Source: a virus. From it: a DNA stretch of 40,216 nt. Positions 2,193 to 40,032 of the stretch are shown one piece after another (the stretch's first letter is position 1; each line of letters starts with the position of its first letter). The notes under the pieces were generated by a model. It did not search any database. It had not been told where the DNA came from and saw nothing but the letters and a program-made list of their open reading frames with translations. The position numbers were made by a program, and so were the translations under genes. The stretch spans positions 1 through 40,216 of the IMG/VR virus record IMGVR_UViG_3300047494_000085, one strand, 5' to 3'.

Positions 2193-2823
2193 GTAAATTA
2201 AACGCTTTCAAAGAGAACTCAAATGGATTTCCTGGGATATCGCGGACGCATTGAAGCATGGAATTGGCAATTTGATAAATCTCTTGCTGTGCGTGAGGAG
2301 AACGACGCAACCGTATAAAGTTTTCGAAGCTACGAAAATTAAAAGTAACGTAATAGGATATCATCGCCCCGTAAGGGCGTATAAACCTAGCGGACTCCTT
2401 GGCCCGGCTGCGGGATAAACCCGCCTCCACGAGGCGGTCAACGAATTCGTGGTATGCGTCGAAGCATTCCATTGCAAGAGCTTCGTATTCCGCACGCACG
2501 TCCGGCGGCCAATCAAGGGGTATATAAAGTCGGTCGTCCTTTATCTCCCGGTATCGCGCGCTCTCGACATTAAAAGAGATGCCCGCCCGATGACGGATAG
2601 CCTGGATATGCGAAGCAATCTCGCTCGTTACCAAGAAGGTCAGTTGCGAATGCTCGAACGGCGTCCCGTGACCTTGCTCTGCCATAGACTTCAGGAGAGC
2701 GGGCATCCGCGCCCGCTTCTCCTCCGTCATCCCGCCCGTGGAAACCCAAGCCGCTTTGGCATGGGCGATATCCCCACCGGTATGGTTTACAAGCTCTACG
2801 GGGTTCTCGAAGTAGTTAGACAT
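2185..2823 (-). CDS. thyX: FAD-dependent thymidylate synthase ThyX
   Basis: A 212-residue enzyme that methylates dUMP to dTMP using methylene-tetrahydrofolate, FAD and NADPH. The diagnostic ThyX motif RHR-x7-S-x-R is present near residue 80 (RHRAGISFNVESAR). The conserved QxxR-type residues around IRPYGAMISYYVTFNFRSFENFIRLR, and the length, are normal for the family. The ATG overlaps the stop of the SEC-C gene by eight bases. With the RNR in the same operon it would secure dTTP for phage DNA synthesis. I see no missing catalytic residue. Confidence 0.96.
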   Translation of the reverse strand: MSNYFENPVELVNHTGGDIAHAKAAWVSTGGMTEEKRARMPALLKSMAEQGHGTPFEHSQLTFLVTSEIASHIQAIRHRAGISFNVESARYREIKDDRLYIPLDWPPDVRAEYEALAMECFDAYHEFVDRLVEAGLSRSRAKESARFIRPYGAMISYYVTFNFRSFENFIRLRRSPHAQQEIYQIANSMLQCVRDIPGNPFEFSLKAFNLHE

Positions 2824-3511
2824 CCAGCGTCTCCCGGACGACGAACTCGCCCGTCTCCGGATGCTTCACGAGGCCCATGGCCGCGTAGAAGTCTTCGACT
2901 CCGATTTCCCCTTCCTTGAACTGTTTACTGAGCGCCTGGAACTGCGGGTCGGCCTCTAAGGCCGCTTCCGCAGCAACCCGCTCCGCGTCCACGGGAGGGA
3001 TACTCTTCGGCACGGCCGACCAATGGCCGCAGCAATGCTTGTACTTCACCGGAACGTCGATATCGTAGTCGAGTTCACCGTCGTTCTTGTGGACGACTTT
3101 CGCAGCCCCGCATGGGCAGGGGTCATTACGACCCACCTTGTTACGTGTCTGATGTTGCACCAAACCTTTGAACTTAGAGAATATCTTCTCTTTCTTCCGT
3201 TCAAGGTATTCCTCGTGCTTTGCGATGCAAAGCTCCAGGATGTAATCCCCGTCACGGTCGTAGACGCAGAGGTCCTTAAACCGGGTGAAGATAGCGAGGT
3301 CATCCTTGGAAAGGTCGGACGGGATTAACCGCCGGGTTCCGTCCGGCCAATGCTTCGAGCGACGCTGCGGGCTATCGTGCTTGCGAACGTGTGAGGGGAT
3401 ACCCTCGAACATTACTTCGAGGAGATATTCCTCGGTGGACTTACCGGTCGGATGACCGGTAAGCATATTCTCCACCTCGGGTTTCTGGGCTTCTTCAATC
3501 GTATCTGTCAT
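2816..3511 (-). CDS. SEC-C zinc-motif protein
   Basis: A 231-residue, mostly charged protein. In the middle it has a SEC-C type zinc-binding motif, NDPCPCGAAK followed after an insertion by YKHCCGHW, so the CxCx-to-CC pair is separated by about 20 more residues than in the classic short form. SEC-C motifs are known from SecA tails and from many phage and bacterial accessory proteins, where they bind zinc and often a partner. The rest of the chain is not recognised. It lies between RNR (TAATG overlap) and thyX (eight-base overlap), so a link to nucleotide metabolism is possible but unproven. Confidence 0.75.
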   Translation of the reverse strand: MTDTIEEAQKPEVENMLTGHPTGKSTEEYLLEVMFEGIPSHVRKHDSPQRRSKHWPDGTRRLIPSDLSKDDLAIFTRFKDLCVYDRDGDYILELCIAKHEEYLERKKEKIFSKFKGLVQHQTRNKVGRNDPCPCGAAKVVHKNDGELDYDIDVPVKYKHCCGHWSAVPKSIPPVDAERVAAEAALEADPQFQALSKQFKEGEIGVEDFYAAMGLVKHPETGEFVVRETLDV

Positions 3512-5199
3512 TAGGAACTACACGTTCCTCCCTTCGAAATATCGCACATATCGACGGACTCGATGACGACTTGCGAATCGCCGCCTTCTTCGAATTCCTT
3601 ACCGAGATGCTTGAGGGCCGTCTTGACCTTCACCGGGTTGAGCGGCTGTCCGCCGCGCGCCCCGTCTGGGTAGGTCGTAATACCACGCAAATAGGGGAGA
3701 TACTTTATGAGCATATCGCCGAACTCGCGAACGGTTTCGGAGTTATTCGTCTCACTACCCCACGGCGGAAGGTTTATTGTAGACGAGATGCTGTGGTCAA
3801 CGTATCGCTGGAGCCAAGCCTGAAACGCGACGCGACGCTCGGGTCCGATAGTATAGGCATCCTCGATAACGTCCGGGTCGATGCCCTGGTTTATGAGGCG
3901 CATCGCTGCGCCGTCCACGACGTACTGATACGCCCAGGATTTGCCTTTGAGGTACCGGCGTTTATACGCCGCCGTGAAGAGCGGCTCGCATCCTGTCGTC
4001 GTCTCTGCGACGATGCCGATGCTTCCGGTCGGCGCAATCGCCCGCGTCTTCACCGGCCGTGAGATACCCCACTTGTCCGCGTAGTACCACGCATGGGGCG
4101 TAGACTGCGTATAGATGGCTAGGAGGCCCGCAAGCTCCGGGTCCGGCCCGTAAGGCTTGCCACGCTTCAGAAGCCACTCATGCAGCCCCATGATGCCGAG
4201 ACCTAGCCGACGATTCTTCTCTCGCGTCTCACGAATCTTTTCATACGGCACGTCCGAGTAGACCGTGCCCGCGAGCAAGAACATCGTAGCGTACTCGACC
4301 ACCTCTCGCATATCAGCATCGTCTTCGATGTGGGCCATGTTTATCGACCCCAGGTTGCAAATATCAGAGTCGTCGTAGGACGTAATCTCGGTGCAAGCGT
4401 TGCGAAGATTCTCACCTTCGTTATCGCCGCAGTCGATAGAGAATCCGGGCTCACCCGTCTTCACCATTTGCCTAACCACTTCCCAATAGATGGTAGTTGC
4501 AAGGACGTGTTGCGGATGCGATTCGTTGTTATACGCTTCGAAGAAAAGCGTATCGAGGATGATGGAAATGTTCGTCATGTCCATCGTCGCCGGGAAGTTG
4601 TAATCCTTAGCCTTGAGGGCACGGACTTCCGGAATCCAATCCTTGAGATGAATAAACTTCATCGCATCTTTATGGTTCCAATGAAGCCCCGCCCAAATAG
4701 CGGAGCGTCTCGCTCCGCCCTGCATAATCCCACGGCCTGCTTCATTCAACATTTGCATGAGAGCAAGCGGACCGGTGGCAAAGCCGCCGGTACGATGGAT
4801 GACTGAACCTTCGGGACGCACGTCGGAATAAACAACACCGACGCCCGCACCCGTCATCAAAGCCATCGACGAATCGTGGAGCAACTGAGCCCAACCCTCG
4901 CGGCTGTCTGTCGCGCGTTGGAGAACGCAGTTCTGAACTTGGTGAAGAGGCCGCCCGGCCGCATAAAGATAGCGGCCACCTGGGATAAACTTCTTAGCCG
5001 CGATGATGTTCGCGATTTTCTGGATGTCATATTCCGAGACAGGGACGACCGACATTACATTACGCGCAACGCGCAGGGCGAGTTCGCCCCAATTCTCTTT
5101 GTCGCCGTCTTCCGTGTCATGGAAGTATTTCTGTGTGGTGATATCGAGAGCAAACTTAGATTCGAACGGAGCGATAAACTCCGGGACTACGAGTGGCAA
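3511..5199 (-). CDS. nrdJ: Ribonucleotide reductase, probably class II (B12-dependent)
   Basis: A 562-residue reductase large chain making deoxyribonucleotides. The thiyl-radical motif NxCxE is present (Asn267, Cys269, Glu271 in NACTEI). The redox-active cysteine pair fits Cys91 (QNCVLQ) and Cys281 (DICNLGS). The substrate loop PTGSIG and a C-terminal cysteine pair (Cys552, Cys560 in GGTCSS) that would re-reduce the active site are also visible. No ATP-cone precedes the barrel and no small subunit (NrdB) occurs in the window, so I favour adenosylcobalamin-dependent class II. The TTG start is supported by AGGAG five bases upstream. Class I with a distant NrdB is the alternative. Confidence 0.88.
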   Translation of the reverse strand: MPLVVPEFIAPFESKFALDITTQKYFHDTEDGDKENWGELALRVARNVMSVVPVSEYDIQKIANIIAAKKFIPGGRYLYAAGRPLHQVQNCVLQRATDSREGWAQLLHDSSMALMTGAGVGVVYSDVRPEGSVIHRTGGFATGPLALMQMLNEAGRGIMQGGARRSAIWAGLHWNHKDAMKFIHLKDWIPEVRALKAKDYNFPATMDMTNISIILDTLFFEAYNNESHPQHVLATTIYWEVVRQMVKTGEPGFSIDCGDNEGENLRNACTEITSYDDSDICNLGSINMAHIEDDADMREVVEYATMFLLAGTVYSDVPYEKIRETREKNRRLGLGIMGLHEWLLKRGKPYGPDPELAGLLAIYTQSTPHAWYYADKWGISRPVKTRAIAPTGSIGIVAETTTGCEPLFTAAYKRRYLKGKSWAYQYVVDGAAMRLINQGIDPDVIEDAYTIGPERRVAFQAWLQRYVDHSISSTINLPPWGSETNNSETVREFGDMLIKYLPYLRGITTYPDGARGGQPLNPVKVKTALKHLGKEFEEGGDSQVVIESVDMCDISKGGTCSS

Positions 5200-5226: not shown

Positions 5227-5937
5227 CTAAACTTCCGGCTCGGCGAAGCCTTCTTCTTCGGCTTTACGGTTCTCGGCGAACAGCGTTTCCTGACCGGCTG
5301 CGTCGGTACGCATATTGCGTTTGCACGACGGAGCCATATCCGTGATTAGCTTTCCACCGTCGGGAAGGCAATGGCAAATTTCATGCTGCACGACTCGTGC
5401 TGCCATGCCTTCGAAGGTATATTTCCGGGGCTTCGGGTGGTGAATCGTTTGGCCGTAAATCGTAATCTTCTTGAGACGCGCTACGTCCAGCCAAATTCCC
5501 GGATGGGAAATACATCCTTCCGTATCCCAATACGTGTTGTCGTCGTTCGCTTCTTCCGCATCGTTAAGCGCGATGCGCGGATTCATAATCACGACGAAGT
5601 TCTTCGTACCGGGAATGGTCATGGCAAACATTTGCACGTTCGCGCCGATTTGCGGCGCAGCCAAGCCAAGACCACCTTCGATGATGTGGCGACCGACGAG
5701 CGTCTTCGCAAGCTCGAGCGTCGTGACGCCCGTGATATCCTTGATTTTCTTATTCGGCGCGTACAGGCGCGGGTCAAGAGGATTCCGGATAACTTGGTAC
5801 TTCTCGTTCAGGAAGATTTGCGAACGCACGTACTTCTCCCGGCGCAGGCGTTCCGCTGTCCGGTAGTCATAGATGAGACCCGGCTTCGGGTCCACCGGAA
5901 TAACAGACGTTGGTTGTGAGACGATTTCAGATAACAT
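5227..5937 (-). CDS. def: Peptide deformylase
   Basis: A 236-residue metalloenzyme that removes the formyl group from N-terminal methionine. All three family motifs are present in order: GLGLAAPQ, EGCIS (metal-ligand Cys) and QHEICH (HExxH with both His ligands and the catalytic Glu). It is longer than compact phage deformylases, with about 70 residues before the first motif and a tail after HEICH. The start ATG has AAAGGA five bases upstream. Phage deformylases are known from cyanophages and others and are thought to speed maturation of phage or host proteins during infection. It stands between the RNR and a small membrane gene. Confidence 0.93.
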   Translation of the reverse strand: MLSEIVSQPTSVIPVDPKPGLIYDYRTAERLRREKYVRSQIFLNEKYQVIRNPLDPRLYAPNKKIKDITGVTTLELAKTLVGRHIIEGGLGLAAPQIGANVQMFAMTIPGTKNFVVIMNPRIALNDAEEANDDNTYWDTEGCISHPGIWLDVARLKKITIYGQTIHHPKPRKYTFEGMAARVVQHEICHCLPDGGKLITDMAPSCKRNMRTDAAGQETLFAENRKAEEEGFAEPEV

Positions 5938-13334: not shown

Positions 13335-15247
13335 TGTCCGTCCGTAACTTTCTCATTACCCAAGGTCTTATCGCTCCTGCCGACGTTCCTAACTCGCAAG
13401 GCCAATTCCGGATAAACTGCCCGCAATGCCACCACAAGAATGATAAATGCTACGTGGATGGCTCGGGTAAGGGACTCCTGTGTTTCCATTGCAAGTTCCG
13501 CTCGACGTGGCGGGCGTTTATGCGCCGCTACGAGCCGCCCACTCCACAAGAAGTGGAGATGGAAGCGTATGTCTCCGCGTGTCAATCAGCACTCCTGAAC
13601 GACGCGAACCTTATGCAATGGTTTGCCGACCGAGGCATTCCCGAGGATGCCGTCAAGGCGCAGCGATTCGGCTACCACGACAACACCCTTATGGGAAAAC
13701 CGAACGAACTCGATGTCGAACTCGGGCTAACGTGGCCGGATAAATCCAACGGCACCAAAGCTCCCGCGTGGATGCTCGATAAACATATCACCATTCCGTA
13801 TATCAGAGACGGCATCATCGTTGGTGTGCGTGGTCGCATCCATCCCAATCTTCAGAATAACCCTGGCGTCCAGAAGTATATGTCGCTCCATGGTGCTAAG
13901 GGGATGCCGTACTATCCGTCGTCTATCGACCCGGAAGAGCCCGTCATCATTTGCGAAGGCGAACTCGACGCGGTTCTCCTGCGACTCCAAGGCATTCAAG
14001 CCATTGGAGTCCCGGGCGCCCTGAATGCGAACATGGATTGGTTCCAGGGTTTTACTCGGTTGTATATCTCTTTCGATGGAGACGACGCCGGGCGCGAAGG
14101 CGGAGACAAGCTCCTTAAGCACCTCACGGAAGTCCGCCGCATCGAAATGCCGGAAGGCTACGACGCAAGCGATTATATCCAAGCGTTCGGCGCACAGTCG
14201 TTCACCATCCTGATGAATCGCGCCGTGCTTTATCTGCACGGCAAGCCGCAGAAGGAAGACCGTTTCTCAAACCTCGTCACCGACTACGCGAATTGGGCGT
14301 GGTCGAACGGCACTCTTCTCGGACCTCGTATCCCGTGGGCACCACGGTTCGAGGAAAAGATGAGCGGTTGGGCTCCGGGCCTTATCCTCGTCGGTGCGGA
14401 AGCGAACTCCGGCAAGTCGTGCTTCAAGGTCAAGAGCCTGTACGAACTGTGCGTGGAGAATCCGGACGATACGATTGGAGTTTATCTAAGTCTCGACGAT
14501 ACGTGGCAGGAAGCGATGACGCGACTCATGTCGCTTCATTCGGGAATCGACTTCAATAAAATCGTTACGCCACGGCATAATATCGCTCACGACCCGAACC
14601 TCCTCAAACAATATACTGATGCGTTCGAGTCGTTGAAGCAAATCGAGAATCTCATCGTTCGCGACGCGACCTACGGGCGCTCGCTCTCGTACCTCAAGAG
14701 CACGTTCTCGAGCTTACGCTCCAAGTATCCGGATAAACGCATCGTCGTCTTTATCGACTCACTTGCGAAAATCACGAGCGATTCCGGCGACGATGAGACG
14801 CCGATGGAGATGTCCACCAAGACGAATTGGAAATCGTACTTGGCATCCGAACTAAAGTACCTCACGACGAAGCATAATATCTGCGTCGTGACGGCAACGG
14901 ACCTTCGGAAGCTCAACGGCGCTCGTCGCCCGACGCGCGACGACCTCAAGGATGCAGCCGAACTCGCCTACGAAGCCAACGCGATTCTGCTGTGCTACAA
15001 CGACCTACGTCGGATGCGGGACGATGCGGTCCTTTATTGGACCGACCCTGATACCGGCGAACGCGAATCCATCTTCGAAATCATCTTCGACAAGAATAAG
15101 ATTACCGGAAAGCTCGGCACCGTGCGCTTCCGGATGCACGGCGGAACGAGCGACTTCTGGGAATGCGATGCAGCCGAAGACGCAGAGAACGACCGACTGA
15201 TGCAACAGCAATTAGCCGATAAACGTCGGCGGGAAGCGGCAGCATAA
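13334..15247 (+). CDS. Bifunctional DNA primase-helicase (T7 gp4/Twinkle-like)
   Basis: A 637-residue replication protein. The N-terminal zinc domain has CPQCH and CFHC knuckles (about residues 30-55), as in CHC2 primases. A TOPRIM domain follows, with the catalytic Glu in IICEGELDAVLL and the metal-binding YISFDGDDAGREGG. The C-terminal half is a RecA/DnaB-type hexameric helicase with Walker A GAEANSGKS, Walker B VVFIDSLAK and a DnaB-like end (DKNKITGKLGTVRFRMH). It would unwind the fork and lay primers for PolA. GTG start overlapping the previous stop; TAATG joins it to the next gene. Confidence 0.93.
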   Translation: MSVRNFLITQGLIAPADVPNSQGQFRINCPQCHHKNDKCYVDGSGKGLLCFHCKFRSTWRAFMRRYEPPTPQEVEMEAYVSACQSALLNDANLMQWFADRGIPEDAVKAQRFGYHDNTLMGKPNELDVELGLTWPDKSNGTKAPAWMLDKHITIPYIRDGIIVGVRGRIHPNLQNNPGVQKYMSLHGAKGMPYYPSSIDPEEPVIICEGELDAVLLRLQGIQAIGVPGALNANMDWFQGFTRLYISFDGDDAGREGGDKLLKHLTEVRRIEMPEGYDASDYIQAFGAQSFTILMNRAVLYLHGKPQKEDRFSNLVTDYANWAWSNGTLLGPRIPWAPRFEEKMSGWAPGLILVGAEANSGKSCFKVKSLYELCVENPDDTIGVYLSLDDTWQEAMTRLMSLHSGIDFNKIVTPRHNIAHDPNLLKQYTDAFESLKQIENLIVRDATYGRSLSYLKSTFSSLRSKYPDKRIVVFIDSLAKITSDSGDDETPMEMSTKTNWKSYLASELKYLTTKHNICVVTATDLRKLNGARRPTRDDLKDAAELAYEANAILLCYNDLRRMRDDAVLYWTDPDTGERESIFEIIFDKNKITGKLGTVRFRMHGGTSDFWECDAAEDAENDRLMQQQLADKRRREAAA

Positions 15248-15507
15248 TGTCTGACGATTACAAAACGAATCCAGCCAAACGCGAAGCAAGTATCTATGCC
15301 GAGGTCCAGGTTTATGACCCGGGGGCAGACCCGTACTATATCAAGGTCGGTGGCTATGTGAAGTCATCGCGAATCAATATCTCGATGCACGACGGCAATT
15401 CCGATGAATGCGACCAGCCGCTTTGCGCCGACCAACCAAACCTTCAGTTTGACGCCGCGAAGTTCTTCCAGGCCATCCACATTCTACAGAGAGCGACCCA
15501 ATCATAG
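15247..15507 (+). CDS. Small protein of unknown function
   Basis: An 86-residue protein starting in TAATG with the helicase stop. It is acidic and Tyr-rich in the middle (EVQVYDPGADPYYIKVGG) and ends in a helix (AAKFFQAIHILQRA). No family is recognised. It sits exactly between the primase-helicase and the RecB-like nuclease with no spare bases, so it is probably a replication or recombination accessory. Confidence 0.6.
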   Translation: MSDDYKTNPAKREASIYAEVQVYDPGADPYYIKVGGYVKSSRINISMHDGNSDECDQPLCADQPNLQFDAAKFFQAIHILQRATQS

Positions 15508-15508
15508 A

Positions 15509-17497
15509 TTGAGTAACGACCTCACGCAGGATGTCGGCCTCGCACAGACCCCGGTTCTCCGATATTCAGTAAGCGCGCTGCGCCAGCAAGCAACGTGTAG
15601 CGCCCGCCGCTACTTCTGGAGACTCGCGAAAGAAAAACTCATCGAAGTAGACCCGTCTATCGCTCTCGTGACGGGTTCGGCTGCCCATAAAGGCATCGAA
15701 CTCGCACTCAAGGAGGGCGCCGACCCGTTCAAGGTCGCGGCGGATTACGTCCAAGAGAATCTCTTCGACAAGTTCCCGGCAGAGAAAATCGACATGGTGA
15801 AAGCTCAGGAACGCATCGCCGACATGAACGTCTGCATCGCGAACTACATGAAGCACTTCCACAATAACCTTCTCGAGCAACTCGAGGACCCGCAAAGCTC
15901 ACTCGAAGTCACACTCGAGATGCCGTGGCGCAAGGGCGTCCTCAAAGGCGTTATCGACGTTATCGCCGCGGACGGTATCTTTGCCGACTGGAAAGGGCTC
16001 GCGCTCGATACTCCACTTCCAACTCCCAACGGATGGACGACGATGGCCGACGTGCGTGTTGGAGACACGCTTTTCGGACGCGAAGGGCACCCATGCAAAG
16101 TCATCGGTAAGTCCGAAGTATCGAACAAGAAATGTTACCGGGTAACCTTTGATGACAAGACGAGCATCGTGTGCGATGAGGACCATCTCTGGTATACCGT
16201 TAGCGGCTCCAAGCCTAATTCACATGAGGTTCGTAACGTAAAAGATATCGCCGCGACTCTCAAAGATAAGCACCGTATTCCGCTTGCATCCCCGCTAGAT
16301 ATTCCTCGCGCTAATTTAGCCATCGACCCGTATGTTCTAGGAGCATGGCTCGGCGACGGCAAGCATACGGACGGCTCTATTTGTGGAGAAGACGATGAGA
16401 TATTCGAAAACATCGAATCGTGTGGATATACCGTTCTTCCCCCGCAGCATACGGTAAACCGTACTCTTACGAGAACGGTTAAGGGACTGCGAGCGAAGCT
16501 AGGTCTCGAAGAAGGACTACTCGGTGCCAAGCACATCCCCGAAGAATACCTCCGAGGAAACTACGAGCAGCGACTCGCGCTGCTGCAGGGGCTCATGGAT
16601 ACGGATGGGACCTGGAATCCGATTCGTAAGCAAGCAATCTTCACGTCTATCCACCTAGAGTTTGCGGAATCGGTCGAGGAACTCGTCCACTCTCTCGGTG
16701 GACGGGCTCGTATTTTCAAACTCACAAAACGCGGCTTCGGGAAAGAGATAACCGCTTACGATGTAGCGTTTACTCCGGTAGGTTTCAACCCTTTTCGAAT
16801 CTCTCGCAAGAGAGATAGTGTAGTTTATCCTGCAACCCGCAGGTCTTTCAGGAGACTCATCATCGCGGTCGATGAAATCGACTCCGTGCCTACGCAATGT
16901 ATCGCGGTAAACTCTCCGGATAACACATACCTTTGTGGAAAGCAAATGGTACCGACCCACAACACGGGCAAAGTACCGAAGGAAGAGATGTTGGGAACGG
17001 ACCCGCAGGCTGCGGTTTATTACTATATCGCTAAGTCTATCGGGATGACGCCTCCCAGGGTCTTTAACTACGTCTATCTCAAGGGCAAACCGATGACCAA
17101 GAAGCCTGAGCTAGACGAGCATGGCGGGGAGGTCCGGTATAAAACCGGCCCGCGCAAAGGCCAAGTCAAAGAGGTCTGGGACCAAGAAAACAATCTCAAG
17201 TTCACGTTCCCTGTTCTTCAAGACGACGATAAAGTTAAGCGGATGATGAACGACTATATCGTTCCAGTCGCCGTCGCTTACGAGAACGACATCATGTTCA
17301 AGAATCGCTCTGACTATAACTGTGCAAGTTGTGAGTACCGGACGGTGTGCCCGAGCATGACGCTTCCGGAACGAACCGACTACGATATCATCTCGCCCAC
17401 TTCCATTCAGGAAATCATCGACGAGACCCGCGCCCAAGAGGCTGCGGAATCCCAAGAAGAAAGCCCGGCCGACGTGCCGGACGAGGATTCACTCTAA
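15509..17497 (+). CDS. RecB/Cas4-family nuclease interrupted by an intein
   Basis: A precursor of 662 residues that would be 339 after splicing. The nuclease has the PD-(D/E)XK core of RecB/Cas4 proteins: GSAAHKGIE early on, GVIDVIAADGIFADWK, and after the intein TGKVPKEEM, so the spliced product reads ADWKTGK, the classic D-x-K-T-G motif. Four cysteines, one in ATCSARRYF and three in CASCEYRTVC, fit the 4Fe-4S clamp of AddB/Cas4-type nucleases. It probably makes 3' single strands for the annealing protein or RecA. TTG is the start, one base after the previous stop; its ribosome binding site is weak. The active site exists only after splicing. Confidence 0.88.
   Translation: MSNDLTQDVGLAQTPVLRYSVSALRQQATCSARRYFWRLAKEKLIEVDPSIALVTGSAAHKGIELALKEGADPFKVAADYVQENLFDKFPAEKIDMVKAQERIADMNVCIANYMKHFHNNLLEQLEDPQSSLEVTLEMPWRKGVLKGVIDVIAADGIFADWKGLALDTPLPTPNGWTTMADVRVGDTLFGREGHPCKVIGKSEVSNKKCYRVTFDDKTSIVCDEDHLWYTVSGSKPNSHEVRNVKDIAATLKDKHRIPLASPLDIPRANLAIDPYVLGAWLGDGKHTDGSICGEDDEIFENIESCGYTVLPPQHTVNRTLTRTVKGLRAKLGLEEGLLGAKHIPEEYLRGNYEQRLALLQGLMDTDGTWNPIRKQAIFTSIHLEFAESVEELVHSLGGRARIFKLTKRGFGKEITAYDVAFTPVGFNPFRISRKRDSVVYPATRRSFRRLIIAVDEIDSVPTQCIAVNSPDNTYLCGKQMVPTHNTGKVPKEEMLGTDPQAAVYYYIAKSIGMTPPRVFNYVYLKGKPMTKKPELDEHGGEVRYKTGPRKGQVKEVWDQENNLKFTFPVLQDDDKVKRMMNDYIVPVAVAYENDIMFKNRSDYNCASCEYRTVCPSMTLPERTDYDIISPTSIQEIIDETRAQEAAESQEESPADVPDEDSL
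15995..16963 (+). mobile_element. Class 3-type intein with LAGLIDADG homing endonuclease
   Basis: A 323-residue insertion starting GLALDTPLPTPNGWTT and ending VPTHN before Thr of the extein. Position 1 is Gly, not Cys or Ser. The class 3 signature W-C-T is present: Trp in block B (EDHLW), Cys in block F (TQCIAV) and Thr before the terminal His-Asn (PTHN). Splicing would start from the block F Cys. Two LAGLIDADG motifs, LGAWLGDG and LLQGLMDTDG, mark an intact homing endonuclease. The insertion splits the catalytic ADWK/TGK of the host nuclease, a conserved spot where loss of the intein is possible only by precise excision. Confidence 0.9.
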
Positions 17498-18077: not shown

Positions 18078-18295
18078 TGGCGAGAACCAAGAAACCTGTA
18101 GAGAAATCCTCGGCGCTTGGTCTACCCGGAAAAAGGTTCGCTGTTGTCGTGGAATTGTGGGAGGTCGTCGGACCCGACTCTTACATGGTCGGAATCGACG
18201 GGTTCTCCGAGATGCACCGTAGCTTCGCCATCATGCACGATGACCGAGAGACGGCAATCAATACGTTCGAACTAATCGACCGACTCTCCGGATGA
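18077..18295 (+). CDS. Small protein of unknown function
   Basis: A 72-residue protein with a basic start (ARTKKPVEKS) and a compact body (KRFAVVVELWEVVG, then MHDDRETAINTFELIDRL). GTG start in a TAGTG junction, ATGA overlap with the next gene. No known motif. Its neighbours are a DUF4406 protein and a PD-(D/E)XK nuclease. Confidence 0.55.
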   Translation: MARTKKPVEKSSALGLPGKRFAVVVELWEVVGPDSYMVGIDGFSEMHRSFAIMHDDRETAINTFELIDRLSG

Positions 18296-18633
18296 GCGCG
18301 GGCTCCGAAGCCCTCGGCGAAATCCTCCGTAAAGAATTCCGCAGCACGTTCATCCAGTCCGAGTATCCGATAAAGATTGGTCGGGCGACACTCTACCTCG
18401 ACTTCTATCTCCCGACACTCAAGCTCGCATTCGAGTACGATGGCGAACAGCACGCGGCATATAGCTCCCACTTCCACGGCAACCGACAAGGCTTCGAGCA
18501 TTCGAAGCTACGCGATAGACTCAAGGATTCATGGTGTAGGGACAACGGCGTAACCCTTATCCGGATAAACCATAAAGAGCAGGTCACCAAAGACCTCATA
18601 CGCCGGAAAATAATCGAAAGCGTTAATACCTAG
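18292..18633 (+). CDS. DUF559/Vsr-like PD-(D/E)XK nuclease
   Basis: A 113-residue protein with the compact Vsr/DUF559 endonuclease layout: an opening helix (ALGEILRKEF), LYLDFYLPTLKLAFEYDGEQH carrying the catalytic Asp and Glu-x-(D)-x-E/Q, then KDSWCRDNGVTLIRINH as the final strand. Such proteins nick or cut DNA in repair or restriction. In a phage operon it could process recombination intermediates or degrade host DNA. It overlaps its upstream neighbour by four bases (ATGA); the next gene starts one base after its stop. Confidence 0.8.
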   Translation: MSAGSEALGEILRKEFRSTFIQSEYPIKIGRATLYLDFYLPTLKLAFEYDGEQHAAYSSHFHGNRQGFEHSKLRDRLKDSWCRDNGVTLIRINHKEQVTKDLIRRKIIESVNT

Positions 18634-24049: not shown

Positions 24050-25213
24050 ATGGCACGTCAAAGGACCCTAAACGTCAAAATCCGGTCAAAGGGTGGGGGG
24101 TTTGAGGCCCGTCCGACCATCGACGGTCGGCAGAAGTCTATCTTCAGAAAGACCAAACAAGAGGTCGAATCCGAACTCGCAAAACTCTATTTGAGTAAAA
24201 CTCGCCAGGAGCGTGGTACAACGACCCTTGGCGAGTTTATTGCTATCTGGAACGACCGTGAGAAAGCGCGAGCGGAAGACCCGAACGTCCGGTCACCTAA
24301 AACCTATCTCGGGCGCAAGGGACTGCTCGCGACCCACGTCGAGCCCCAACTCGGCCATGTCCGGCTATCATCTATCGACCGGGACCTCATTCGGGATTGG
24401 TCAGAACGGGCCGAGAAGCGGCTTAAGAGCGCACCCGCGCGGAAAGGCAAGGGAAAGGGCACCCGGAGCCTCCAGGCCGCGTATAGCGCCCTTTCTGCGT
24501 GCTTATCCGAGGCCGTAGATGACGGCCTCCTCGAGTCCAACCCCTGCCTCCAGCAAGGTCGGCGCTCGATAAAGCCTCTCCACAAGAAGTCAGACATCGA
24601 AATCCTCATCGCCGACGAGCTTCGAAAGCTCTGGATTGCCGCGACCGCATCGGCCCGCGCCAAGTACACAGCACCGCTCATTTACCTCGCTTCGGCTACG
24701 GGAATGCGTCAGGGTGAAATCCTGGCGCTGAAGTGGGAGGATGTGGACTTGGTGGCGGCGACCATTCGTGTGCGCCGGAACCTCACGAAGGACGTGGAGG
24801 GAAAGGCCCTCTCGAAGCGGCCGAAGACCGCTGCCGGGACGCGGACTATCGGACTGCCTCCCTACGCCGTCCAGGTCCTCAAGCATTGGCAGGCGACCGG
24901 ACGAAAGTCGAGCCTTGGGCTCGTCTTCCCGAACCTGCGTGGGAAGCACCTAAACGCGACCAACTTTATGGCCCGGGAGTTCCGGCCTGCGCTGCTCGAG
25001 GCGAAGGTCCGGCCTGTCACGTTCCACTCGCTGCGTCACACGCACGCGAGCCAACTGATATCCTCCGGAGCCAACCTCAAGGCGATATCCGCTCGCCTCG
25101 GTCACGAGAATATCCAGACGACCTTGGATATCTATGGGCACCTGATGCCGGGCGACGACGCGGTACTCGCGGCCGTCGTGGAGCGGGAGTATCATTCCCT
25201 GATTATTCCCTGA
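24050..25213 (+). CDS. int: Tyrosine integrase
   Basis: A 387-residue recombinase with three parts: a basic N-terminal arm-binding domain (residues 1-60, RSKGGGFEARPTIDGRQKS), a SAM-like core-binding domain and the catalytic domain. Catalytic residues are complete: Arg in ATGMRQGEILALKW, Lys in SKRPKTAAGTRTI, His-x-x-Arg in HSLRHTHASQL, His in LGHENIQ and Tyr in LDIYGHL. It inserts the phage at attP, which lies just downstream. The last codons and stop overlap two arm-type repeats. Confidence 0.95.
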   Translation: MARQRTLNVKIRSKGGGFEARPTIDGRQKSIFRKTKQEVESELAKLYLSKTRQERGTTTLGEFIAIWNDREKARAEDPNVRSPKTYLGRKGLLATHVEPQLGHVRLSSIDRDLIRDWSERAEKRLKSAPARKGKGKGTRSLQAAYSALSACLSEAVDDGLLESNPCLQQGRRSIKPLHKKSDIEILIADELRKLWIAATASARAKYTAPLIYLASATGMRQGEILALKWEDVDLVAATIRVRRNLTKDVEGKALSKRPKTAAGTRTIGLPPYAVQVLKHWQATGRKSSLGLVFPNLRGKHLNATNFMAREFRPALLEAKVRPVTFHSLRHTHASQLISSGANLKAISARLGHENIQTTLDIYGHLMPGDDAVLAAVVEREYHSLIIP

Positions 25214-32304: not shown

Positions 32305-32645
32305 TAGACTGTATACTTATCGACGAGGATTTTAACCAAGTCGATATCCTCCGGCCCAAGGCCGACCATCTCGGAATCCTTCGTTTTGCAAACGAAGAAC
32401 GTCCCCACAAGAACGTCCTGCCCGCCGAATATCATTCGGTTGTACGGCTTCTCCTTCATCTTGCCTTCTTCATCGCCCACGACGATATAGTTATGGGCTC
32501 GCGGCCCGAGTATCGTCGGCATAACCTGGATATACCCTCCCACGAGCTTCTGCATCGCTGTAAGTTGGGCATCCGGGTCTTCGCTTCCAGGAATAGATTC
32601 GAGCCGGGGATTCTCCCCCGGCTCGTAAACGAGTACGTCCATCAT
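32304..32645 (-). CDS. DUF3846-like protein
   Basis: A 113-residue protein with the layout of phage DUF3846: AQLTAMQKLVGGYIQVMPTI, an NYIVVGDEEGKMKEKPYNRMI strand pair, GGQDVLVGTFFVCKT and a final helix (LGPEDIDLVKILVD). Members are common in phages and plasmids, and their role is unknown. ATGA overlap with the recombinase stop; TAGTG overlap with the next gene. Confidence 0.75.
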   Translation of the reverse strand: MMDVLVYEPGENPRLESIPGSEDPDAQLTAMQKLVGGYIQVMPTILGPRAHNYIVVGDEEGKMKEKPYNRMIFGGQDVLVGTFFVCKTKDSEMVGLGPEDIDLVKILVDKYTV

Positions 32646-33445
32646 AAAAAGTCCACCATCTTTCCTAGACTAGTGTAGTCAACTCTTGCATATCGTTGGC
32701 GACAAACCTCCACGGTATTCCCGAGAAGGTCGCTGATTTCTTCGTAACTGAATCCGTTCGCTCTTAGCTTCGTTGCAACGCCGTGGCGAAACCAATGGGG
32801 CTTTATCCGCACCCCGGCCTCCTTCTCCGCTTTGCGGTAGGCGTTGCGAATCGTGTTCTGATGAGGCTTGTGGTCGAGGGACACCCAATACTCGAAGGCG
32901 TCGAGAGCTTCGGCATTCAGGGACACGGTGCGCTCGCCCCGGCCCTTCCCGCGAAAGCGAATCGCGTGAAGCCCGGGAGCGGGTTGCCAATAGTTCGCGG
33001 CCGTAAGGTCGTATGCTTCGCTAAACCGAAGCCCGGTGTTGCGAAGTAGTACCGCGTGACAATGGGCGGCGTGTGAAATACCCTTGAGCGCGGTCATAAA
33101 CCGTAGAGCATCCGCGTCGTCTACCACGACCGGAAGGGTGAGGGATAGCTTGCTTTGTTGGAGCGTAAAGCTACCGACCGTCGTAATCGTGTAGGCCGGA
33201 TACTTTCGGCGCAGCCACGTAACGAACGAGCATAAATGCGCGAGGACTTTATTCCTCGTCGCGATATTCTCGTACCTCTCGAGGAACAATTCTACTGTGG
33301 CATCGTCGATGACGGTCGTGCCGGATTGAATATAAAGCCGGTACGTGGTTTCATAACTCCGGATAGTTTGTTTGCTCTTGCCGCGCTTCTTGAGTACCTC
33401 GACGTACTCTGCAAACTGCTCGGCAAGCGTGCTTGGAATTGCCAC
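32642..33445 (-). CDS. Second tyrosine recombinase (XerC/D-like)
   Basis: A 267-residue recombinase with a SAM-like N-terminal half (KQTIRSYETTYRLYIQSG) and a catalytic domain. Visible residues: Arg in LRNTGLRFSEAYDL, Lys in FRGKGRGERTV, His-x-x-Arg in PHWFRHGVATKL and Tyr in CRQRYARV. The usual second His is Asn (LLGNTVEV). It has no arm-binding domain and no att-like site nearby. It may resolve dimers, invert DNA or be a captured Xer-type enzyme. GTG start with AAGGAG eight bases upstream. It opens the DUF3846/ART/macro gene group. Confidence 0.88.
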   Translation of the reverse strand: MAIPSTLAEQFAEYVEVLKKRGKSKQTIRSYETTYRLYIQSGTTVIDDATVELFLERYENIATRNKVLAHLCSFVTWLRRKYPAYTITTVGSFTLQQSKLSLTLPVVVDDADALRFMTALKGISHAAHCHAVLLRNTGLRFSEAYDLTAANYWQPAPGLHAIRFRGKGRGERTVSLNAEALDAFEYWVSLDHKPHQNTIRNAYRKAEKEAGVRIKPHWFRHGVATKLRANGFSYEEISDLLGNTVEVCRQRYARVDYTSLGKMVDFL

Positions 33446-36965: not shown

Positions 36966-37456
36966 AGATGGGACCACAACTTCCGCGATATGATATAGGA
37001 TATAACTTGCTGGCTACATCCGAACTCAATCGCTAACTGCCGTTGCGTAACGACACGAGGTATATACCGGCGTCGTATCTCTTTAACTTGGTCCTCAGTC
37101 AGTACAGCCATTGGGTTGGTCGTACCAATAAAGTGAACCGGGTTGTGCCTTCCCCGTGCTACCATCTGACCTTGGTTCTCTAGTCGTGTTCCCTGCGATA
37201 GATGAGCCGGGTTGCAGCACGGCGGGTTGTCGCACGAATGCAAGACTTGTAAGTCCGGGTCGATGTGACCGTTGACTAACTCATACACCGCACGATGGGC
37301 TACGACCGAACCGTTGCGTCGTCCCGTCTTTGCGATACGTCCATAACCGAAGTTAGTCTTACTCTTACCAATCCAAGGCCAGCATTCATGCGGGCCTTGG
37401 ATGTCTATTTTAGCCCAGAGTCGTTCACTAAACGTCATGGTTACATGACCGCTCAT
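36962..37456 (-). CDS. HNH homing endonuclease with HTH tail
   Basis: A 164-residue protein of the HNH_3 type: ECWPWIGKSKTNFGYGRI, then HRAVYELVNGHIDPDLQVLH-SCDNPPCCNPAHL containing HNH and a Cys-Cys zinc pair, then a DNA-binding tail (LTEDQVKEIRRRYIP, QRQLAIEFGCSQQVISYII), an HTH that usually fixes target choice. The ATG at 37456 overlaps the VWA gene stop (ATGA); it has been inserted between two genes without loss. Confidence 0.9.
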   Translation of the reverse strand: MSGHVTMTFSERLWAKIDIQGPHECWPWIGKSKTNFGYGRIAKTGRRNGSVVAHRAVYELVNGHIDPDLQVLHSCDNPPCCNPAHLSQGTRLENQGQMVARGRHNPVHFIGTTNPMAVLTEDQVKEIRRRYIPRVVTQRQLAIEFGCSQQVISYIISRKLWSHL

Positions 37457-40032
37457 GGTTTGCACATCCGTTTAAGATGGCGTCCCAACACCTTACCGAT
37501 GGTCTCTTCGGTGATTTGCTCGGCACGATGTTCGCCAACGAACTGCGCGGCATACGATGCCGAATAGCCAACCGTCAACACGACCATCTCGACGCCATCC
37601 TTAGCGAGGTTGTTAATCGCTTCGCGAATATCAGACTCAGAGTTACCGAACTCACCGTCCGATAAAACAATGAGCATCTTTTTCTGAGCGGAAGACTTCT
37701 TAAAGTCTTCGCGCAGTTCGATAAGCGATGGCAGTATATCCGTACCGCCGGAGTTTCTGAAGTTCAGGAACCAATCGAGAATCTTAGCTTTATGAGAGCC
37801 GTTCATTCTCGAGCGAAGGTCCTTGAGATTCGTATGCGCCGAGTGTACCTGCGGCTCATACTCCAGACGATACTCGCCGGTCTCTGGGTCGTACACACTT
37901 GACGGGTAGTACGGTCCGTCATTCTTCATGCCGGGAACGTACTGATATGGAGTAGCGAATCCAGAGTAGCCGACGTGTACGTCTTGGAACGAACGGAACG
38001 CTTCCGCAATGGCGACACACATACGAGTCGCCATAAGGATACGACTACCGACGCCGCCTTTTAGCTTCCAACTCGTGCCGTCGATGAGAGCTTGCTCTTG
38101 TTGCTTGAGGGTTTCGATAGCATCGAGAGTCTTCGCGGTGTTACGCGACCCTCGACCGAGACGCTCGGCGATATCCTTACCGAGTCGGTTAATCTCTCGC
38201 TGTTTCGAGAATATCTCCGGATACGCTTGGGTACCGCGAACAGCACCGCCCATGCTGGACGACGTATCGACCAAAACGTGAACGGCAAAGCTACGCTGTC
38301 CCTTCTCGGAACGACGTGAGTAAGCGCGGTCGTTGCTGTTGCGTGCTGCCGCCATAGCGGCCTTCACGTCGAACTTACCGGAACGATAGCCGCGAACTTT
38401 ATCGACGGTCTCGTTCTCTTTGAGATACCGTTCGATGCTCTTACGAATCGGCGCGACGTAAGGCGCGACCGTTGAGACAACCTGTGCCCATGTAGGAGTG
38501 AACTCGTACTGTTCGGGATTGAGTTCGCTCGTACCTAAGCCCGCACCACCACCGAGAAAGCTATCGCTGGTGTTACCCTTCTGTGCTTTAGTCTCGTCCG
38601 TGACATCGCCCTGTGCCTGTTGCTTCGGCTCTTGCTTTGCCTTGTCACGAATCTCTTCGAGTTCGTCTTTGGGTGCGGCTTCGATATCATCGTCGTCATC
38701 GTCGCCGGGTTCGTCTTCGTCAACCGCTTCGTCACCGGCGCCCGTGCCTTGGTACGGGTCGCCATCGGTGTCACCCTCGTCATCCGATTCGTCATCGTCG
38801 TCTTCGGGTTCGTCTTCTTCGTCTTCCTCGTCTTCGTCCTCGTCGTCGTAGTCATCGTCCTCGTCGTCATCATCCTCATCGGATTCGTCTGACTCTTCGG
38901 ACTCGTCTTCGTCTGACTCTTGCGGTTGGTCTAACCCTTCGCCGCTACCGTCGGCGAAGTTCTCGTCGTCCTCTTGGTCTTGCTTATCGTCTTGCTGGTC
39001 TTGACGATTGTCCTGACTGTCTTTGCTCGTGTCATCGTTGTCTTGCTCTTGGTCCTGGTCGTCCTCGTCTTGGTCTTCGGACTCACCGGCACCATTAGGT
39101 TCGGGCTCGTCGTCACGCTCGCGCTTGTCGTTCTCCGAACCTTCTTCGGTGTCACCCCAACCCTGCGTATTCTCGTCGGGCTTCGGACCACCAGAGCCAC
39201 CGGATGGCTGCGAATCTTCCGGCTCGATGACATACTCGGGAGACTGTTGTGGTTGGTCGCCCTGTTCACCGTCGCCGTCCTCGGGCGTCGGCGGTGGTGG
39301 CGTACCGGTCGGTGGGACGAACTCTTCCACCGGTCTTGCCGCAGCAATCTCCGGTGCAAGCGAAGCCCACTTGCGAAGCGCGCCGTTAACCGTCGGCTCT
39401 TTGCGTAACGCAGCGATGCGTTCACACAGAGCTTCCGACCACGGCATATCCTCGGGCAGGTCGTCGTGAGTAAGCGCGCCCGATACGAGGCCGCGCACCA
39501 TGGTCTGCGCTCGCAGGTAGTACAGACTGTTGCCATCCTTGTCGATGGCACCCTGCGGACTCACACGTTGAAGCTCTTCGTACTTCTTGAGGAACCACTC
39601 GCGGCGATATCCCTGGTCCCAACGTGGTAGGTCACCGTTCTTTAATCCCGGATATCGTTTCGTTCGGAGACGATACTCCGAACGCTCGTCTTCCGTAGCC
39701 CGCATGAGCATCTTAACGCTCTCGGCATGAATCGCTTTCGCGCCGAGCTTACGGTTAATGTTGCGTGCGATATCCATAGAGATAGCGCGCGGGCTTAGGT
39801 CGGTCTGACTATAGAGACAATGACCGAGGTTCTTAAACACAAGACCCTTGGCTTGCTGGAAAGATAAACCAGACATAGCGGCGACGTTGTATATCAGTTG
39901 CCGCTTGTCGTGATTATATTCCCACCGCGCACCGGGTACCATGTGGACGTTAAGCTCGCCGCCCACCGCATTAGCGATGTTCTCGAGCGCAGTCAGTTCG
40001 TCCGTTGCTCTGTGTGTCTGAAGTGTACTCAC
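37453..40032 (-). CDS. CobT-like VWA-domain protein
   Basis: An 859-residue protein in three parts. Residues 1-240 form a helical domain. A very acidic Asp/Glu/Gln-rich linker follows (about 240-490). The C-terminal VWA domain has the MIDAS residues DTSSSMGG and a later LSDGEFG, as in CobT and the VWA partners of MoxR-like AAA+ ATPases. Such pairs remodel or insert metals into target complexes. The gene upstream (40076, partial) may be the ATPase. The GTG has a perfect AAAGGAGG six bases upstream, spacer TTTATC. Well expressed by this sign. Confidence 0.85.
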   Translation of the reverse strand: MSTLQTHRATDELTALENIANAVGGELNVHMVPGARWEYNHDKRQLIYNVAAMSGLSFQQAKGLVFKNLGHCLYSQTDLSPRAISMDIARNINRKLGAKAIHAESVKMLMRATEDERSEYRLRTKRYPGLKNGDLPRWDQGYRREWFLKKYEELQRVSPQGAIDKDGNSLYYLRAQTMVRGLVSGALTHDDLPEDMPWSEALCERIAALRKEPTVNGALRKWASLAPEIAAARPVEEFVPPTGTPPPPTPEDGDGEQGDQPQQSPEYVIEPEDSQPSGGSGGPKPDENTQGWGDTEEGSENDKRERDDEPEPNGAGESEDQDEDDQDQEQDNDDTSKDSQDNRQDQQDDKQDQEDDENFADGSGEGLDQPQESDEDESEESDESDEDDDDEDDDYDDEDEDEEDEEDEPEDDDDESDDEGDTDGDPYQGTGAGDEAVDEDEPGDDDDDDIEAAPKDELEEIRDKAKQEPKQQAQGDVTDETKAQKGNTSDSFLGGGAGLGTSELNPEQYEFTPTWAQVVSTVAPYVAPIRKSIERYLKENETVDKVRGYRSGKFDVKAAMAAARNSNDRAYSRRSEKGQRSFAVHVLVDTSSSMGGAVRGTQAYPEIFSKQREINRLGKDIAERLGRGSRNTAKTLDAIETLKQQEQALIDGTSWKLKGGVGSRILMATRMCVAIAEAFRSFQDVHVGYSGFATPYQYVPGMKNDGPYYPSSVYDPETGEYRLEYEPQVHSAHTNLKDLRSRMNGSHKAKILDWFLNFRNSGGTDILPSLIELREDFKKSSAQKKMLIVLSDGEFGNSESDIREAINNLAKDGVEMVVLTVGYSASYAAQFVGEHRAEQITEETIGKVLGRHLKRMCKP

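Follow-up and report, generated by a model that had tools for sequence, protein, structure and literature searches.

A probably mobile class 3 intein directly after the catalytic lysine of a putative phage Cas4-like nuclease

What interrupts the active site of a phage nuclease immediately after its catalytic lysine, how would the enzyme be restored, and how often has this junction been entered? These questions are raised by a virus record of 40,216 bases (the whole of which is called the window below), where a long insert parts the two halves of a nuclease gene. The best explanation is very probably that the insert is a mobile, self-splicing and homing class 3 intein, which interrupts a phage Cas4/RecB-like PD-(D/E)XK nuclease just behind its motif III Lys. 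Class 3 inteins are defined by Trp at B:12, Cys at F:4 and Thr at G:5 (the WCT triad), without a nucleophile at position 1 (PMC3196547, PMC5050341). The features are collected in Table 1.

Table 1. Coordinates of the features discussed, with the basis of each assignment.
Feature	Position	Strand	Basis
Intein-containing nuclease precursor gene; likely TTG start 15509, stop 17495-17497	15509..17497	+	ORF; start inferred
N-extein, first nuclease part, ends ...FADWK	15509..15994	+	Pfam PDDEXK_1 positions 2-144
Cys29, lone N-terminal Cys of the Cas4-like 4-Cys (Fe-S type) set	15596..15598	+	invariant with JC27 Cas4 and L003; cluster inferred
His59, nuclease G-x-x-x-H motif	15686..15688	+	invariant in alignments A2 and A3
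Asp149, nuclease motif II (GVID)	15956..15958	+	invariant in alignments A2 and A3
Asp159-Trp-Lys161, nuclease motif III (D-x-K), intein directly after Lys	15986..15994	+	D159 and K161 invariant in A2 and A3
Lys codon before the intein	15992-15994	+	
Class 3 intein, 323 aa, Gly1 to Asn323	15995..16963	+	structure matches, alignment, model
Intein Gly1 codon	15995-15997	+	
Block B His64-Leu-Trp66 (His B:10, class 3 Trp B:12)	16184..16192	+	aligned with 6bs8/6rix; invariant 61/61
LAGLIDADG motif 1 (block C) LGAWLGDG, catalytic-type Asp121	16337..16360	+	
LAGLIDADG motif 2 (block E) LLQGLMDTDG, Asp202 and Asp204	16580..16609	+	Pfam LAGLIDADG_3
Block F Cys302 (F:4), in QCIAV; expected initiating nucleophile	16898..16900	+	class 3 structure alignment; invariant 61/61
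Block G Thr321-His322-Asn323 (G:5 Thr, penultimate His, cyclising Asn)	16955..16963	+	
Asn323, last intein codon	16961-16963	+	
C-extein, second nuclease part, TGK...	16964..17494	+	Pfam PDDEXK_1 positions 151-247
+1 Thr codon, first of the C-extein	16964-16966	+	
C-x2-C-x5-C, three C-terminal Cys of the Cas4-like set	17321..17350	+	invariant in alignment A3
L009 and L018 nuclease genes, inteins 24% different	3016-4014		

The surrounding genes are those of phage replication and nucleotide metabolism: a primase-helicase, RecA/UvsX, DNA polymerase A, ThyX, a B12-type ribonucleotide reductase and integrases. A comparison at the DNA level brought up no phage closely related to the surrounding 7.8 kb. 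Several neighbours may be recorded in their own right. Three genes downstream of the nuclease, a small ORF (18292-18633, plus strand) matches the HNH/homing endonuclease families of phrog_559 (1.2e-19) and, weakly, DUF2726/DUF559; it may be a free-standing homing-type endonuclease. The ribonucleotide reductase (3511-5199, minus strand) is only 562 aa long, its barrel domain is matched in three stretches, and ORF 2816-3511, which has no PHROG match, starts at its stop, so that this gene may be split or shortened. Two tyrosine-type integrases lie on opposite strands (24050-25213, plus; 32642-33445, minus), a phage-borne peptide deformylase (5227-5937, minus) matches phrog_2890 at 5.7e-25, and a large protein of 859 aa near the window end (37453-40032, minus) has a C-terminal VWA/CoxE-like stretch.

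The precursor gene probably starts at a TTG two bases past the stop of the upstream ORF (15247-15507), which gives a protein of 662 residues; Cys29 is numbered in a translation counted from 15512. That the two flanks belong to one enzyme is evident from their match to PDDEXK_1 (PF12705, cut-off 22). The joined exteins score 62.6 bits (E = 7.2e-17) in a single stretch over positions 2-247 of 247, the precursor with its intein 41.3 bits in two stretches, and the halves apart 22.1 and 25.6 bits. Residues H59, D149, D159-x-K161, C29 and C281/C284/C290 (joined-extein numbering) are invariant with JC27 Cas4 and L003. The sequence thus has the residue pattern of a Cas4-like nuclease, one N-terminal and three C-terminal Cys, for which an Fe-S cluster is predicted. 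Motif and family, not a solved homologue, are the basis on which these catalytic positions are assigned; a sequence search of the PDB with the joined extein returned chance matches only, none of them a nuclease. Relatives of the joined extein were absent at E <= 1e-5 from phages and at E <= 1e-3 from viral contigs. At E up to 5 there were weak matches, which include Cas4 genes of mycobacteriophages and RecB-like nucleases of phages, and because the search gave only such weak matches the nearest intein-less relatives must be far.

The insert comes between motif III and the next strand, and also between Cys29 and the triplet of C-terminal Cys. Because motif III and that triplet are parted by 323 residues, the nuclease is expected to stay inactive until splicing; judged by the position of the intein, an inactive unspliced form is very likely. 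The AlphaFold2 model of the precursor is poor in the exteins, where the pLDDT is about 25-50, and gives no guide to the effect on the nuclease fold.

The first-pass annotation had placed the intein between ADWK and TGK, directly after the catalytic Lys, and its limits prove exact to the codon. Right after ...FADWK the intein begins with GLALDTPLPTPNGWTTM..., it ends in ...MVPTHN, which is followed by the extein TGKVPKEEM, and its 323-codon frame is open throughout. Its AlphaFold2 model is confident (mean pLDDT 93.7) and supports a HINT domain with an inserted LAGLIDADG domain. In a VIA-align comparison the modelled splicing domain superimposes on the class 3 structure 6bs8 with Z 21.9 and an rmsd of 1.5 over 126 residues (47% identity), above the Z of 16-19 reached by class 1 mini-inteins. 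The entire model aligns with PI-SceI at a Z of about 27. The endonuclease proposed from the sequence motifs is borne out by a Pfam LAGLIDADG_3 match (E = 3.7e-6) and by a predicted family fold that matches both PI-SceI and I-DmoI. The splicing domain itself was recognised through the PDB, PHROGs and structure and not through Pfam: PF14890 (Intein_splicing) has no match in the window, and the Pfam search of the precursor reported no splicing-domain model, while PHROGs built on intein-bearing terminases match the intein at 3.7e-29. A profile search of the window's six frames, with an HMM that included the window sequence, found no second intein of the same family.

All the class 3 marks are present, namely Gly1, H64-x-W66, C302, T321-H322-N323 and a +1 Thr. 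The best matches by phmmer against the PDB are two class 3 DnaB inteins, one from M. smegmatis (6bs8, E = 3.8e-26) and one from M. chimaera (6rix, E = 3.3e-25), with H-x-W, the block F Cys and T-H-N in register, whereas the best class 1 intein, gp41-1, is far weaker (8.7e-8). Phages, viral contigs and bacterial genomes supplied the 61 inteins of an alignment in which H64, W66, C302, T321 and N323 are invariant, as is D204 of the second LAGLIDADG motif. The earlier reading of the WCT signature, including the Trp in block B and the Cys in block F, thus stands when the blocks are aligned with solved structures, and alignment and predicted fold together confirm the element as a class 3 intein.

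A Gly at position 1 might also be expected of a class 1 or class 2 intein whose first nucleophile had been lost by a recent point mutation, the more so as class 2 inteins likewise lack that nucleophile. The chance of this is negligible: the WCT triad is complete and in register with class 3 structures, and Gly1 is common to all 28 members of the clade described below. Homologues with Cys or Ser at this position, which the first-pass annotation had named as evidence against its own call, did not appear in that clade (no Cys, Ser or Thr in 28/28), and the other relatives in the tree set have none of the three either (31/31). Ser1 occurs only in Momo, which belongs to the separate C1 lineage. A point mutation is, in effect, already refuted as the source of Gly1.

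A different possibility is that the intein is decayed, its frame open but its splicing lost, as in Arthrobacter Arth_1007, or its endonuclease dead. Inactive class 3 inteins do exist (PMC3196547). However, Arth_1007 is without the F:4 Cys and the B:10 His, both of which the window intein has. With no catalytic residue lost from blocks A, B, F or G, and with the Asp motifs of both LAGLIDADG stretches in place, decay is very improbable. By its sequence the window intein is real and looks intact.

For an intact class 3 intein the chemistry, taken by analogy from the published class 3 mechanism, would rest on Cys302, the +1 Thr and Asn323. Once the precursor has folded, Cys302 in block F, activated by His64, would attack the Lys161-Gly1 peptide bond, so that the N-extein moves onto Cys302 as a thioester. 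The +1 Thr would then accept the N-extein, and Asn323 would cyclise with the help of His322 to release the intein. A final acyl shift would leave the ligated nuclease, ...DWK-TGK..., which would have been switched off up to this point. The LAGLIDADG domain, for its part, would cut intein-less alleles across the same codons, and the intein would be copied in by recombination.

Such an arrangement could also serve as a timed switch, in which splicing conditional on redox state or metal holds the nuclease inactive until a given stage of infection. The intein adjoins the catalytic Lys itself and separates Cys29 from the three C-terminal Cys. Two papers report, respectively, that oxidative stress affects the splicing of a mycobacterial class 3 DnaB intein (PMC6195587) and that zinc inhibits DnaB splicing (PMC7360933). 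On the other hand, catalytic motifs are conserved homing targets from which intein loss is hard, so that no extra function is needed to explain the position, and JC27 and similar close relatives manage without an intein. We consider a timed switch unlikely; a regulatory role is possible, and nothing in the analysis demands one. The simpler reading, a self-splicing mobile intein, is kept in what follows.

Has this junction been entered once or more often? In a tree built from 33 inteins, one clade (100/96) unites 20 from the nuclease site, that of the window among them, whereas Momo and ScoobyDoobyDoo, of the C1 type, join the LittleE terminase intein (100/99). A single clade for all nuclease-site inteins is rejected (AU p = 0.0012). 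In a 61-row tree the window's clade enlarges to 28 (SH-aLRT 98). Most of its exteins come from phages or viral contigs and some from Actinomycetota genomes (Nonomuraea, Frankiaceae, Nocardioides, Brevibacterium), where the copies are likely of prophage origin. Some of these exteins reach the PDDEXK_1 cut-off, and the rest are called nucleases, on weaker grounds, by their D-x-K junction and context. The 'DxK' pattern also caught non-nuclease E-G-K sites (LEGK^SS, and QEGK^STLLE in L138), which were moved to the non-nuclease group after their flanks had been read.

The first residue of the intein varies with the site in the set examined. It is Gly after D-x-K in 28/28 members of the window's clade, and among the 31 other relatives it is Ala in 26 and Gly in one. 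In Momo it is Ser, though the WCT triad is present.

It could be argued that the window intein and the C1 RecB inteins descend vertically from one lineage and that the two-lineage tree is an artefact, because both groups share the insertion point (D/E-x-K^) and some branches are long. We regard this as improbable, given the outcome of the AU test under the one-clade constraint. Trees built from the splicing domain only and from the endonuclease only each require two label changes, and in both the C1 pair falls beside the LittleE terminase intein; RecB and TerL1-d inteins likewise group together in Kelley 2016 (PMC5050341). In these trees the window intein falls outside the C1 mycobacteriophage RecB lineage (Catera Gp206 type). 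Because the C1 inteins group with the Omega-type terminase intein, the same catalytic Lys has apparently been entered by inteins at least twice. We think it likely, though with less assurance than the nature of the intein itself, that a broad undescribed Gly1 lineage is restricted to this repeatedly invaded Lys junction across diverged nucleases, and that the C1 intein came to it separately via a terminase-type intein.

Evidence for mobility comes from relatives. In the window, the joined DNA site around the junction would read GACTGGAAA^ACGGGC. The first-pass annotation had proposed intein-less homologues as a comparison; an empty site was found in the Cas4 gene of JC27, and none was found close to the window's own gene in the phages and viral contigs searched, for which reason the evidence for an empty site comes solely from relatives. 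The Cas4 genes of DiMaria and JC27 are 93-97% identical in DNA on either side of a clean 990-nt insert, which in DiMaria lies at DYK^T; JC27 there reads DWKT with the same codon junction. The Cas4 gene of Dexes, like that of DiMaria, holds an intein of the same clade, whereas that of JC27 has none. In a second pair, L009 and L018, the extein DNA is 96-97% identical and the intein 75.9%, and the identity shifts abruptly where the intein begins and ends. One intein appears to have been replaced, or the two to have been gained separately, and on the DNA comparison we call this a clear case of intein replacement. Both the turnover seen between L009 and L018 and the comparison of DiMaria with JC27 agree with the predicted cleavage of an intein-less allele.

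The same picture emerges on a wider scale. Among 30 nuclease-site inteins all 435/435 pairs match by BLAST (E <= 0.01), whereas just 48/435 pairs of their exteins do. The dN/dS of the endonuclease domain is 0.13-0.28 in four pairs of relatives (rough values, as synonymous sites are near saturation), and because of these values the endonuclease appears to be held under selection. Within the window, GC3 is 0.54 in the intein and 0.67-0.72 in the exteins, and the lower value agrees with a foreign origin. We infer homing into empty alleles, which the turnover in relatives supports.

Besides the Walker A loop of terminases and DnaB, class 3 inteins thus appear to favour a second place, the nuclease active site, which they have apparently entered twice. 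The variation of residue 1 with the site bears on how the first residue is accommodated in the class 3 active site. For annotation, many phage records speak of a plain Cas4 exonuclease or HNH endonuclease, and such genes would be better labelled as intein-split Cas4-like nucleases. To our knowledge, limited to open-licence papers, a second nuclease-site lineage has not been described, and an earlier description elsewhere is possible.

The closest published parallel is in the C1 mycobacteriophages, whose RecB/Cas4-like exonuclease carries class 3 inteins at the PD-(D/E)XK motif (Kelley 2016, PMC5050341). The first-pass annotation's suggestion of a possibly new host gene for the class has to be given up: a class 3 intein at this motif of a RecB/Cas4-like phage nuclease is already known. 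What is new, as far as the trees can be trusted, is that the window intein belongs to a lineage separate from, and wider than, the published one at the same site. A related class 3 intein in a like host, that of Catera Gp206, spliced in a model precursor (PMC3196547). Like the window intein, the C1 inteins (Catera Gp206, Momo gp215) combine the class 3 WCT triad with a LAGLIDADG domain and lie directly after the motif III Lys, the Momo junctions reading VELK^S...THN^T. They differ in being only about 37% identical, in having Ser1 (Momo) or Ala1 (ScoobyDoobyDoo) in place of Gly1, and in forming a separate lineage allied to the Omega-type terminase intein. Momo gp215 (L026) and its relatives are annotated as HNH endonuclease or homing endonuclease.

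Members of the window's own clade, with the same junction, are the Cas4 inteins of the cluster A mycobacteriophages DiMaria, Dexes, Zeeculate and Traft412 and of Streptomyces phage Frankenweenie. The inteins of DiMaria and Frankenweenie are 50-51% identical to that of the window, while the exteins of these two, the ones checked, have no BLAST match to the window extein. In the records of these five phages the intein is mostly unannotated; that of Frankenweenie carries the note 'Cas4 exonuclease and intron'.

The DnaB mini-inteins 6bs8 (M. smegmatis) and 6rix (M. chimaera) resemble the splicing domain of the window intein at 44-47% identity and an rmsd of 1.5-2.0, and share its H-x-W, Cys and THN, but they reside in the Walker A site of DnaB, start with Ala1 and have no endonuclease domain. 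PI-SceI, the yeast VMA intein, which is of class 1, shares the combination of HINT and LAGLIDADG domains over the whole length, but differs in its Cys1 and is only 18-20% identical in the structural alignment.
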